From Alphaproteobacteria bacterium (lineage in GTDB: Bacteria > Bacteroidota > Bacteroidia > Bacteroidales > FEN-979): a stretch of 64,000 nucleotides of DNA. Under the pieces are notes generated by a model, which saw only the letters and a list, made by a program, of their open reading frames with translations, was not told where the DNA came from and searched no databases. A program made the position numbers and the translations under genes. Positions within the stretch are counted from its first letter, which is position 1. Every line of letters starts with the position of its first letter. Shown piece after piece: positions 10,523-47,615 of the stretch. The stretch lies in contig SACF01000002.1 of the NCBI GenBank assembly GCA_009928665.1, positions 62,001 through 126,000 on the forward strand. Reading direction: 5' to 3'.

Positions 10523-10634
10523 ATAATTGACAATTGAAAATGGAAAATGGAAAACGAAAAATGGAAAACTTTTTTCCTTAATGGCTAATGACCAATGCAT
10601 AATGGCTAATTTGAATTTTGAATTAATTTTTCCC
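10523..10634 (+). repeat. Heptamer-word tract upstream of prenyltransferase gene
   Basis: Sixteen consecutive 7-base words stay in one register across 112 bases. Examples are AAAATGG at 10537, 10544 and 10558, TAATGGC at 10579 and 10600, AATTTTG at 10614 and TTTTCCC at 10628. The words differ but change gradually, so this is a degenerate heptameric array and not a perfect satellite. The tract fills most of the 219-base gap before the prenyltransferase gene and ends 19 bases before its ATG. No gene or clear promoter was seen in the gap. Confidence 0.8.
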
Positions 10635-10653: not shown

Positions 10654-11517
10654 ATGCACACTGCCGGTTTTAAAGATATATACACGCTGATCCGCTTCCC
10701 CGTCTCCCTTGCCGTGACTCTTTCCTCGCTTACCGCCATGGTGATGGCTACGGGGGAGATCAATTCCCGGATGATATGGCCGCTTCTTGCCATTTTCCTG
10801 CTGGCCTCAGGAGCCTCCGCCTTCAACCAATACCAGGAGTGGCCCCGCGATGAAAAGATGGACCGCACCCGAAGCAGGCCGATCCCATCGCGCAGAATCA
10901 GTCCGGCCGAAGGGTTGCGTATCGCCATGATCGCCCTGGTCGGTGGTTTGATCATTCTGATGTACCAGGTCAACTGGAATACGTTGGTATTGGGACTGAT
11001 CAACCTTTTTTGGTATAATGGCCTGTACACCTGGCTGAAACGAAAAACAGCATTCGCAGTGTTTCCCGGGGCGCTGACCTGCGTTATCCCCGTCATGATG
11101 GGCTTCGCCTCCATGGAACACGATTACCTCTCTCCCACCGCCCTTTTCCTCTCGTTCTTTATCTTCATCTGGCAGATGCCACATTTCTGGCTACTCATGC
11201 TGAAATACGGGGATGACTACCGCAAGGCCGGATTCCCGGTACTGAACGACATCTTTCCCGAGTTCCGCATCAGGATCATTGTGATGGTATGGGTAATTGC
11301 ATCAACAGCCGTCTCCATCATGCTGGTCTTTTTCAGGATCATTCATCACCCGTTGATTGGTTACACGATCATGGCCCTCAACATCATCCTGTTATTGATC
11401 CTCGCCTGGCAGCTTTTCCTGGCATCTTCTCTCCGCTACCGGCTGGTTTTTGCAAGCGCCAACCTCTTCCTCTTCCTCGTTCTGACCGCACTAACGGCCG
11501 ATTCCCTGCTCTCCTGA
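10654..11517 (+). CDS. UbiA-family prenyltransferase, heme O synthase (CtaB/CyoE)-like
   Basis: A 287-residue polytopic membrane protein of the UbiA superfamily with about eight or nine membrane segments. The Mg-diphosphate motif starts near residue 58 as NQYQEWPRDEKMDRTRSRP, close to the NxxxxxxxDxxMxRTxxRP form of protoheme IX farnesyltransferases. The second conserved stretch, IWQMPHFWLLMLKYGDDY, matches the heme O synthase signature rather than the quinone prenyltransferases. The inferred reaction is farnesylation of heme B to heme O for terminal oxidases. No oxidase or ctaA gene is in the window. A heptamer-word tract lies immediately upstream. Confidence 0.8.
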   Translation: MHTAGFKDIYTLIRFPVSLAVTLSSLTAMVMATGEINSRMIWPLLAIFLLASGASAFNQYQEWPRDEKMDRTRSRPIPSRRISPAEGLRIAMIALVGGLIILMYQVNWNTLVLGLINLFWYNGLYTWLKRKTAFAVFPGALTCVIPVMMGFASMEHDYLSPTALFLSFFIFIWQMPHFWLLMLKYGDDYRKAGFPVLNDIFPEFRIRIIVMVWVIASTAVSIMLVFFRIIHHPLIGYTIMALNIILLLILAWQLFLASSLRYRLVFASANLFLFLVLTALTADSLLS

Positions 11518-13178: not shown

Positions 13179-13543
13179 TGGAAACGGGCCCTATTTCCGA
13201 CAATATCTCGTCGCTTACCGAGAATGTCAAAGACTACATAAATCTGCGGATCGACCTGTTCAAACTGGTGATCACCGAAAAAATATCGCGGGTAGTCTCC
13301 GCTTTTCTGATCGCGGTGGTGTTTTTTATACTGGCGATGTTCATGCTGCTCTTTCTTTCGCTGGCATTCATGTTCTGGTTCGGCGAGGTCGTGGGGCCGA
13401 CCTGGGCCGGAGCGCTGATTGTAACCGCACTGTATGTTATTGCCGGACTGATTATTTATCGGAAACGCCATCAGATATTCCTCAATCCCCTGGTCACTCA
13501 GATCACTAAAGTTTTAATGGAGGAGGATGCGTCGCATGAGTAA
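13178..13543 (+). CDS. Phage-holin superfamily III / YqjE-like membrane protein
   Basis: A 121-residue protein with a short amphipathic N-terminal region, two long membrane helices (about residues 42-70 and 78-100) and a cytoplasmic tail. It fits the Phage_holin_3_6/YqjE family. Despite the name these are usually chromosomal envelope proteins, and nothing nearby suggests a prophage. It is coupled to the YtxH gene upstream through TAATG and overlaps the next gene by eight bases. The order resembles the enterobacterial yqjD-yqjE-yqjK cluster, so a shared membrane-associated stress role is possible but inferred. Confidence 0.78.
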   Translation: METGPISDNISSLTENVKDYINLRIDLFKLVITEKISRVVSAFLIAVVFFILAMFMLLFLSLAFMFWFGEVVGPTWAGALIVTALYVIAGLIIYRKRHQIFLNPLVTQITKVLMEEDASHE

Positions 13544-13832
13544 ACGATATACCATAAAACCGGGAAGCATTACATCCCTGAAAGATCTGGAATTGGAGCG
13601 GCAGCGGCTCAAACTTGAAATCCTCAGGACGGAAGAGCACATTCACCGGGACTACCGGAAAATCCTGGATGCATTTACACTCAGGAATCTTTCGACAAGC
13701 CTGCTGGGCGAAGTCACACACAGTGCAACATTTTTAGGCAAAGCATTTACCTTCGGAAAAGCCCTCATGTCGAAGCGGAAGAAAAAGAAGAAAAGGGAGA
13801 AGGAGCATCCGGAATCAGCGAATGAAGATTAG
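13536..13832 (+). CDS. Small basic protein, third gene of the YtxH/holin-like cluster
   Basis: A protein of about 98 residues with no family I recognise. Residues 10-50 look like a charged coiled coil (LKDLELERQRLKLEILRTEE), the middle is mildly hydrophobic (LGEVTHSATFLGKAFTFG), and the C-terminus is strongly basic (SKRKKKKKREKE). ATG 13536 is preferred over ATG 13527, since a GGAGGAGG ribosome site at 13519-13526 sits at a workable distance from 13536 only. The last few codons and the TAG stop lie in the heptamer-word tract that begins at 13820. It resembles YqjK in position and size; sequence homology is unproven. Confidence 0.65.
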   Translation: MSKRYTIKPGSITSLKDLELERQRLKLEILRTEEHIHRDYRKILDAFTLRNLSTSLLGEVTHSATFLGKAFTFGKALMSKRKKKKKREKEHPESANED

Positions 13833-13966
13833 CGAATAGCGAACGGGGATTAGCGAATAGCGAACGGGGATTAGCGAATAGTGAAAAGGCGATTAGGAAT
13901 CAGCGAATAGACATTTCTCGTTTTCAATTTTCCATTGTCAATTTTCCATTGTCAATTGTCCATTGT
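13820..13966. repeat. Double heptamer-word tract between convergent genes
   Basis: From 13820 to 13882 there are nine 7-base words in register, all starting with GA (for example GATTAGC at 13827, 13848 and 13869, GAATAGC at 13834 and 13855, GAACGGG at 13841 and 13862). Three words make a 21-base higher-order unit that repeats. After one 8-base word three more heptamers follow to 13911. A second array at 13925-13966 has six words alternating CAATTTT or CAATTGT with CCATTGT. The first array contains the stop of the gene on +; the second encodes the C-terminal tail and stop of the gene on -. Confidence 0.85.
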
Positions 13967-15081
13967 TTCACCCAACACCTGCGTCTGATGTTGACTCTGC
14001 CGTCATAATTTTTCCAGATTGATACCACCCTCTGATTATTTTCGAGCAAGGCATGGGTCCGGGCAAACCTGATTCCCTTCTCGATATAGGTTTTGGTAAG
14101 TTCATGATAAACAAGGGCCAGCACACCTTTCTCCTGGTAATCGGGGCGAACTCCCACAAGGTACATATGCACGGTGTCGTTGATTTTCATGGCCTTCATC
14201 AGGTGAATAAATCCAAATGGGAAGAGGGAACCATTAGCCCGCTGGAGCGCCCTGCTTAAATCCGGCATGGTAATCCCGAAACCCACCACATCATCCCGGT
14301 CGTCAAGCACCAGGGCAACAAAATCGGGATGGATGAAACTGAAATACTGATCCGTATAAAACGAAATTTGTCGTTCCGAAAGCGGGATGAATCCGTACAA
14401 ATACCTGAAGGCTTCATTATACATCCGGAACAGTTTCATGGCGTATGGGTGCAGCGCCTTTGAACTCCGCACCTTCAGAATATGGAGTGGATATTTTTCG
14501 AGAACTAACCGATGCATCCGCTCTATTTTTTCCGGGACTTTGACGGGCACCTGAATTTCGAGCTGGATCCAATCGGCTGCCTTACGAAAGCCCAGCGCAT
14601 TCATGTGGGAAGGATAATAGGAATGGTTGTAAATAGCGGCCATACTGGACAGTTCTTCAAATCCTTCGATCAGCATTCCCTCCGGATCCATATCGTTAAA
14701 ACCCAGCGGACCGTGGATCCCGGTCATCCCCTTCGACCTTAACCATTCTGTTACGGCGGTGATCAATGCCTGCGAAACTTCCGGATCATCAATAAAGTCG
14801 AACCAGCCAAACCTGACAAGCTTTACATTCCAGATTTCCGCTTCCCGCTGGTTGATAATACCTGCAATCCGCCCCACCGGCACTCCGTTTTGATAAGCCA
14901 TCCAGTAAGCAGCTTCACAAAATTCGAAGGCCGGATTCTTCTCTTTCGAAAGTGTCTGCAACTCATCCGATTTCAACGGCGGACACCAGTACCGGTTTCG
15001 TTTATATAACTTAAAGGGAAAGGCAATAAACTGGTCCAGGTCAGGCCGCGTGACGACTGCTCTGATTTCGGTATAGGCCAT
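13924..15081 (-). CDS. Acyltransferase-like (GNAT superfamily) protein
   Basis: A 385-residue cytoplasmic protein resembling large two-domain GNAT-like proteins common in Bacteroidota. Residues 85-115 (AAYWMAYQNGVPVGRIAGIINQ) look like a GNAT central strand region, and the C-terminal part (MYLVGVRPDYQEKGVLALVYHEL) resembles the acetyl-CoA binding loop with Q-x-K-G-V in place of Q-x-x-G-x-G/A. Substrate unknown. The last 13 or so residues (QWTIDNGKLTMEN) are translated from six heptamer words at 13925-13966, and the TGA stop is part of the last word. The native C-terminus probably ended near RRRCWVK, so the tail is likely acquired. Confidence 0.7.
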   Translation of the reverse strand: MAYTEIRAVVTRPDLDQFIAFPFKLYKRNRYWCPPLKSDELQTLSKEKNPAFEFCEAAYWMAYQNGVPVGRIAGIINQREAEIWNVKLVRFGWFDFIDDPEVSQALITAVTEWLRSKGMTGIHGPLGFNDMDPEGMLIEGFEELSSMAAIYNHSYYPSHMNALGFRKAADWIQLEIQVPVKVPEKIERMHRLVLEKYPLHILKVRSSKALHPYAMKLFRMYNEAFRYLYGFIPLSERQISFYTDQYFSFIHPDFVALVLDDRDDVVGFGITMPDLSRALQRANGSLFPFGFIHLMKAMKINDTVHMYLVGVRPDYQEKGVLALVYHELTKTYIEKGIRFARTHALLENNQRVVSIWKNYDGRVNIRRRCWVKQWTIDNGKLTMEN

Positions 15082-15816: not shown

Positions 15817-15844
15817 TTTGTCTCCCATTTTCCCCGTATCTTCG
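15817..15844 (+). promoter_or_regulatory. Possible promoter ahead of the cutC leader tract
   Basis: TTTG at 15817-15820 and TATCTTCG at 15837-15844 (one mismatch to TAnnTTTG) are separated by 16 bases, somewhat short of the usual 19. If used, transcription would begin near 15851 and the heptamer-word tract would form nearly the whole cutC 5' leader. Confidence 0.4.
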
Positions 15845-15915
15845 CATTTTACTATTTTGCATTTTGATTTTTGACTTTTCATTTTGAATTTTGACATTTG
15901 AATTTTAATAATCCT
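15845..15915 (+). repeat. Heptamer-word tract reaching the cutC start codon
   Basis: From 15860 to 15915 eight 7-base words run in unbroken register and end directly against the cutC ATG at 15916. Words are variants of ATTTTGA (15881, 15888), CATTTTG (15860), ATTTTTG (15867) and ATTTTAA (15902). One further heptamer (15845) and one 8-base word (15852) precede them. The upstream part of the 191-base gap (15707-15844) holds no gene. Confidence 0.75.
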
Positions 15916-16647
15916 ATGCTCCTTGAAGCCTGCGTTAACTCTGCCATGTCGGCCATTGAAGCCCAGAAGGGCAGCGCCGACCGGGTGGAACTGTGTGAAA
16001 ACCTGCATGACGGCGGCACCACACCCAGCGCCGGAGCCATCAGATTTGCACGGGAAAAACTTCACATCGGACTGTTCGTGATGATCAGGCCACGGGGCGG
16101 CGATTTCCTTTATTCGCAGGACGAATTCCGGATTATGACCGAAGATATCAGCATCGCGAAAGAATCGGGAGTCGACGGCGTGGTGCTGGGCATACTGAAC
16201 CCCGACGGCACCATCGACCGGGAACGTATGCGTATGCTGGTTGATCTTGCCCACCCGTTGCAGGTTACCTGTCACCGGGCCTTCGACATGACCCCCGACC
16301 CTTTTCTGGCTATGGAGGATCTGATCGACATCGGTATCGACCGCATCCTTACCTCCGGTCAAAAACCCACAGCTCCTGTTGGGGCAGATCTTATCAGAAA
16401 AATGATCCTGAAAGCCAACGGAAGGATCAGGATCATGCCGGGAAGCGGAGTCAAAGAGCACAATATTGTCGATTTACGTGATATGACCGGTGCCACAGAA
16501 TTCCATATTCATTTGGAGAAGCAGGAACCCAGCCGCATGTTTTTCAGGCAACCCTCCGTGTATATGGGTAACCCCGGACAGTCGGAATTTGAACATGTAT
16601 TAACCGACTGGAAACGGATCCGTAAGATCAGAAAATTGCTGGAATAA
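15916..16647 (+). CDS. cutC: CutC family protein
   Basis: A 243-residue TIM-barrel protein with all the usual CutC blocks: MLLEACVNS, ADRVELCENLHDGGTTPSAG, MIRPRGGDFLYS, VDGVVLGILNPDG, VTCHRAFDMTPDP and DRILTSGQ. CutC was first linked to copper tolerance in E. coli; the biochemical role remains uncertain and copper binding is disputed. The open frame extends six codons to a TTG at 15898 inside the repeat tract, but the family begins at the ATG 15916. No copper transporter or regulator lies nearby. Confidence 0.93.
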   Translation: MLLEACVNSAMSAIEAQKGSADRVELCENLHDGGTTPSAGAIRFAREKLHIGLFVMIRPRGGDFLYSQDEFRIMTEDISIAKESGVDGVVLGILNPDGTIDRERMRMLVDLAHPLQVTCHRAFDMTPDPFLAMEDLIDIGIDRILTSGQKPTAPVGADLIRKMILKANGRIRIMPGSGVKEHNIVDLRDMTGATEFHIHLEKQEPSRMFFRQPSVYMGNPGQSEFEHVLTDWKRIRKIRKLLE

Positions 16648-22521: not shown

Positions 22522-22624
22522 AATAGTGAAATGGTGGGATGGTGAGATGGTGAAATAGTGGAATGGCGGAAACAATTACCAGTCCGTTCTCCGTCCAACT
22601 CTCCGTCCAACTCTTCGTCCGCTA
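22522..22624. repeat. Octamer- and dodecamer-word tract at a gene end
   Basis: From 22522 to 22569 six 8-base words of the form RATRGYGR stand in register (GATGGTGA occurs at 22538 and 22546). After a short spacer, a 12-base word CTCCGTCCAACT occurs at 22589 and 22601 and a degenerate third copy at 22613-22624. The last three bases are the TAG stop (minus strand) of the giant FISUMP gene. The tract occupies most of the gap between the two FISUMP genes. Confidence 0.8.
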
Positions 22625-47340: not shown

Positions 47341-47615
47341 ATTGACTGATTGATTGATTTACTGATTTATTGAGTGAATGAGTGAATGAGAGATTGAGTG
47401 ATTGAAAATATGCTAATATGCTGATGTGCTGATGTGTCAATTTGTTGATCTGAGAATGTGAAAATTTTAAATTATTGCTTTTTTTCACTATTGCATATTC
47501 CCTATTGCTTGGCGTCAAATGGTCAATGCCTAATGCCTGATTTGAACTTTAAACTTTTTTCCCTAATGCCTAATGGCCAATGCCTAATACCTGATTTTGA
47601 ATTTTAACTTTCCCC
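47341..47615 (+). repeat. Octamer then heptamer word tract before the GldA-like gene
   Basis: From 47341 to 47460 there are fifteen 8-base words in unbroken register, every one ending in TG (for example AGTGAATG at 47373 and 47381, CTGATGTG at 47421 and 47429). From 47488 to 47613 the spacing changes to 7 bases with small phase breaks; words include CTATTGC at 47488 and 47502, TAATGCC at 47564, TAATGGC at 47571 and CAATGCC at 47578. Two C residues then precede the ATG at 47616. The 480-base interval after 47134 holds no gene; its first 145 bases hold nothing further that I can identify except the -7 box. Confidence 0.85.

Follow-up and report, generated by a model that had tools for sequence, protein, structure and literature searches.

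Heptamer repeat blocks at gene ends in a Bacteroidales genome, with a protein tail translated from the repeat

Why do two convergent genes both find their stop codons inside short tandem repeats, and does the repeat do anything for either of them? The question is raised by a block in the window (the whole stretch of 64,000 nucleotides analysed here), in which a plus-strand and a minus-strand gene run towards each other into facing heptamer arrays. Heptameric repeats are over-represented in many bacteria, and we know of no agreed explanation for this. The heptamer rule can be tested here, where orientation, stop-codon placement, and frame arithmetic are tied together. The features are, in window coordinates:

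13527..13832, plus strand: plus ORF, 101 aa (98 aa from the second ATG, at 13536)
~13812..13910, plus strand: array S, AGCGAAT/GGGGATT/AGCGAAC-type heptamers and also 21-mer repeats, detected by TRF
13911..13923, no strand: short centre of the block between the facing arrays
13924..13965, minus strand: array A, six heptamers (CAATGGA, CAATTGA, CAATGGA, AAATTGA, CAATGGA, AAATTGA)
13924..15081, minus strand: gene of a GNAT-family protein, 385 aa (PF00583)

The first-pass annotation had placed the TGA of the minus-strand gene (13926-13924) at the far edge of a heptamer array and had read the last 13 or so residues of its product as the translation of six heptamers. Both statements hold exactly: the stop forms the far edge of the tandem array that TRF delimits at 13924-13966, and the 42 nt of array A (13965-13924, minus strand) translate into precisely QWTIDNGKLTMEN followed by the TGA stop. 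Genus homologues of the GNAT-family protein run only a little past RRRCWI(R/K) and stop near residue 373 of the 385, which is where array A starts. Among 24 aligned homologues, the QWTIDNGKLTMEN tail is found only in a 94 %-identical sister species (G010, JAQWBQ01, a Bacteroidales MAG), in which the six words, the stop, and the tail length are all retained and one residue is substituted (K to Q). A comparison of orthologue C-termini had been proposed as a check, and homologues without the tract indeed lack the tail residues. Since homology ends at about residue 373 and the tail is confined to the sister species, this new, repeat-encoded segment was acquired from the repeat. The predicted structure of the protein is confident overall (mean pLDDT 90), while the tail is of low confidence (about 70, then 51). 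Tails such as QWTIDNGKLTMEN are a warning to annotators, being translated repeat rather than protein domain.

The plus-strand gene was likewise correctly said to end (TAG, 13830-13832) inside a heptamer array, namely array S, which has stop codons in all three plus-strand frames. However, array S codes for just the final six residues, ESANED, so that the broader claim, that the tract supplies the C-termini and stops of both genes, stands for the minus tail and for both stops but covers the plus gene only over ESANED. The plus ORF is the final gene of a run of AI-2E transporter, YtxH, and holin-like (PF07332) genes; it matched no Pfam family and is conserved in the genus, with last residues that vary in all members. 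Counted from the second ATG, it is 98 aa long, much like its relatives (~91-100 aa), and its tail has therefore been rewritten rather than extended. Alignment with the sister species shows array S to be 28 bp (four words) longer in the present genome, the change in length lying beyond the stop of the plus gene. In the centre of the block, a terminator scan and an inverted-repeat search at the locus revealed neither a terminator-like site nor a hairpin, and the latter search found no inverted repeat in the block as a whole.

As 7 mod 3 equals 1, successive stop-bearing words place stops in successive frames, and an array can therefore take in a gene's own stop codon and still terminate the product a few words later. 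Array A has its TGAs in words 2, 4, and 6, which fall into frames 2, 1, and 0, respectively. Simulated changes by a single word altered tail and stop, as had been predicted: loss of any of words 1-3 leaves a tail of 6 residues and loss of any of words 4-6 a tail of 21, whereas gain of one word gives 6, 33, or 13, so that the longest tail obtained is 33 residues. With its three TGAs occupying three frames, array A mostly closes itself, and any shifted frame soon meets a stop in the array or close by.

The 14-mer CAATTGACAATGGA occurs 6 times in the window with at most two mismatches (0.98 expected) and 221 times in the genome, compared to 2 for a reversed control; for AGCGAATAGCGAAT, the genome holds 67 occurrences and the control none. 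Sampling covered ~806 kb of this genome (an assembly of 389 contigs with a contamination estimate of 6.9 %) and ~1.05 Mb of the sister, with genes called by a simple home-made coding score. The 806 kb contain 67 period-7 arrays (0 in a Markov control), and arrays of periods 7 and 8 exceed those of neighbouring periods. These word counts and the enrichment of both periods exclude chance as the source of the repeats. Recurring words belong to a family A (CAATTGA/CAATGGA/AAATGGA/AAACGGA) and a family S (AGCGAAT, AGGGATT), and the recurring octamers include GATTTGAG and TGAGTGAA. The locus is thus ordinary for its genome, one among dozens of similar repeat blocks. Among 60 relatives, CAATTGACAATGGA is strongly enriched only in this genome, its sister, and one further relative (G017), and weakly in two others, while other species of the genus carry period 7 or 8 arrays with different words; the vocabulary thus varies from one species to the next, with the period of 7 or 8 retained. 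That CAATTGACAATGGA might be a word general to Bacteroidota was rejected, as among 395 sampled genomes of the phylum only the present one and G407, from another family, have more than 3 exact matches.

Further tracts are present in the window itself. An A-type array (TAATTGACAATTGAAAATGGAAAATGG...) at 10524-10569 lies ~85 bases upstream of the ORF 10654-11517, and TTTTGAA/TTTTGCA-type arrays at 15844-15906 lie directly upstream of, or overlap, the start of the plus ORF 15898-16647. At 22522-22620, an octamer-type tract (AATAGTGAAATGGTGA) is followed by a 12-mer array (TCTCCGTCCAAC), and at 47341-47436 an octamer array (ATTGATTG/ATTGACTG) is followed by AATATGCT octamers. Elsewhere, the A word occurs twice, 270 bases apart, within a gene with PKD-like and Fib_succ_major regions (G000 C178:58613, 58883; L239), a spacing that recurs in C232.

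The period 7/8 arrays form polar blocks in the gaps between genes, with a stop-bearing array directly past the upstream stop codon and a reverse array nearer the next gene. All 13 blocks in the 806 kb that hold both A and S words have the order A> ... S<. The word lists were drawn up after seeing the data, which makes a word-free test, with orientation defined as the strand carrying more stops, the safer one; taking gaps as independent, like all orientation counts here, it found arrays facing each other in 18 mixed gaps and facing away in 1 (p = 8e-5). Of 51 codirectional gaps, 37 open with a stop-bearing array (p = 0.002), whereas the last array shows no orientation bias (25/51). Orientation also goes with position (Fisher p = 0.002): stop-bearing arrays sit closer to the upstream stop, at a median of 42 nt past it, and reverse ones closer to the downstream start, at a median of 41.5 nt ahead of it. 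A arrays in codirectional gaps run with transcription by 22:4, many of them beginning at most 15 nt from the stop; for the word families S, O, T, and K, each taken alone, orientation to genes was not significant. Polarity also holds for A arrays that do not overlap coding sequence (17:4), and protection of the frame alone can therefore not explain it. Nor does the downstream reverse array of a codirectional gap face a gene end, which leaves its orientation without a known coding reason. How many stops a word carries and how rich it is in purines are confounded. The locus is no special convergent pair but one case among genome-wide polar blocks, which mostly occupy codirectional gaps.

Other genes end in such arrays as well. 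Long open frames enter 15 of the 57 A arrays in the sampled genome, and about nine of these frames are likely real genes, judged from reading their ends. They include what we take to be nuoC and uvrA, named by sequence recognition rather than by family search. The nuoC stop and the ATG start of nuoD both lie inside a single A array (G000 C207:32137-32185; L218), of which the sister lacks 14 bp and yet retains a stop. Across 26 array loci aligned with the sister species, a few of them poorly, the arrays turn over mostly by whole words, with indels of 7, 14, 28, 35, and 42 bp, or of 24 and 40 bp in octamer arrays. Between the two species, the tail of nuoC changes from DNGQLTIEN to DNGQLTMDN with the 14-bp indel, that of a gene on contig C182 from RTIEN to RTMDK with a 28-bp indel, and that of a gene on C235 from AWQWTINN to AWRWTMDN; all three still end in the array, and tail length is equal in all six comparable orthologous array-ended genes.

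A second family offers a related arrangement. In G407 (genus g34), all 11 close array pairs, by our count, consist of two facing arms built from one shared word, and they are therefore true inverted repeats. Some of these facing arrays lie inside open frames, including MetH and CarB (L362, L364, L368), and the MetH array occupies a variable linker site at which relatives have a linker of similar length. Word matches in other species of genus g34 range from 1 to 264. The repeats thus visibly rewrite protein ends and, in this other family, linkers.

We consider it probable (about 0.78) that blocks of 7/8-mer repeats, grown by slippage, expanded in the lineage comprising the present species and its sister, overwrote gene ends, and were tolerated there. 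The gap between the convergent genes would then be one of many composite blocks of tandem heptamers (elsewhere also octamers), in which purine-rich words bearing TAA, TAG, or TGA face inwards from both sides, so that ribosomes coming out of the gene on either side meet the strand with the stops. Array A would have overwritten the GNAT-family gene at its end, and array S would have done so with the plus gene. Growth by replication slippage is suggested by the whole-word differences, and the array-coded tails are presumably functionless; the repeats would be tolerated at gene ends because they bring stops in every frame. Selection against read-through may help to set block polarity. A more ambitious view, which we regard as improbable, would make the blocks maintained, genome-wide brackets of gene borders, written in species-specific vocabularies of 7 or 8 bases, actively copied among loci, and shutting translation from both directions; the facing orientation would be kept because both sides close any frame.

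Other origins and roles have to be weighed against blocks expanded by slippage. The notion that they are debris of a small mobile or palindromic (REP/RPE-like) element inserting near stop codons and in protein linkers draws on the identical module order that recurs at many loci and on the inverted same-word arrays of g34, some of them inside MetH and CarB. Yet no fixed ends or length were seen, in MetH the array takes the place of a similarly long linker instead of being cleanly inserted, and the window block is devoid of an inverted repeat, which leaves this origin unlikely. Anchoring just past stop codons with a preferred polarity would also suit a functional 3' element, that is, a bidirectional terminator or RNA-stability element retained for the RNA, and the heptamers of Xanthomonas and Nostoc, which share the placement rule, are mostly transcribed (PMC4692102). 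However, 39 blocks showed no excess folding over dinucleotide shuffles (mean z +0.35 sense, 0.01 antisense), neither a terminator-like site (hairpin, then U tract) nor an inverted repeat was detected at the window locus, and the words differ among species of the genus; such a role is quite unlikely.

It is very improbable that the tract acts as a phase-variable contingency locus, in which heptamer number would switch the C-terminus and hence the activity of the GNAT-family protein. Gain or loss of a word would alter the tail in simulation, and arrays do change by whole words between the sister species, but in the sister the GNAT tail is equally long and almost identical in sequence, and the repeat number inside the frame does not vary between the two. 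The instability of the minus tail that the first-pass annotation implied was thus not borne out, as the sister keeps all six words and the stop, and the 28-bp change lies in the other array. The retained tail length of the six array-ended orthologues, the low-confidence position of the tail at the end of an otherwise confident predicted fold, and the presence of arrays at the ends of housekeeping genes such as nuoC and uvrA speak against a switch, and comparison with the one sister species gave no evidence of phase variation. An artefact of assembly or binning, finally, is barely credible: the genome is fragmented (389 contigs) and contigs of a relative end within such arrays, but the sister, a separately assembled MAG, carries this tail too, with the array at the same place. 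The contig ends in question, which are those of G017 (C88:7-111, C143:5-109), fall within long CAATGGA arrays and suggest that these may break assemblies.

Compared with known repeat systems, the blocks share traits with several. Rickettsia palindromic elements and REPs are tolerated inside proteins, in linkers and tails; in contrast, the window block contains no palindrome and the arrays lack fixed element ends. Among the heptamers of cyanobacterial STRRs, period 7 is dominant and slippage has been proposed. The same holds for long simple sequence repeats (LSSRs; Mrazek 2007, as cited in PMC4679880), in which period 7 dominates and slippage is likewise proposed. Traits of the LSSR/STRR type found here are tandem 7-bp units far above chance and whole-unit length differences between close relatives, the latter at the window locus only in array S (28 bp). 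Unlike LSSRs and STRRs, the present arrays form polar, two-sided blocks with a module order shared across the genome.

The G-rich heptamers of Xanthomonas (GGGAATC) and Nostoc (GGGGAYT) are mostly intergenic, lie between codirectional genes, with the sense strand at most 50 bp after a stop or the antisense strand at most 50 bp upstream of an ORF, and vary in length between close relatives (PMC4692102). The present arrays also run sense after stops and antisense before starts, though as a statistical preference rather than a strict rule. They differ in that, as read from the sequence, the window arrays hold no quadruplex-forming run of G-tracts: the CAATTGA/CAATGGA and AGCGAAT words have none, and the two occurrences of a CGGGGA variant do not amount to four consecutive G-tracts. 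They further combine several word families and octamers within one polar block, and some enter coding sequence. The TAACTGA direct repeats of marine Beggiatoaceae, as described in the cited portion of PMC4679880, are heptamers that place stops in each of the three forward frames. Some of these repeats extend across the upstream gene's stop codon, and their spread is patchy and includes some Bacteroidetes. The present arrays resemble them in all these structural respects but use other words and lie just downstream of stops, whereas that portion of the report places TAACTGA repeats mostly just upstream of starts; the octamers and facing pairs seen here do not appear in it. All in all, the arrays are best filed as a variant of the known heptameric simple-sequence repeats.
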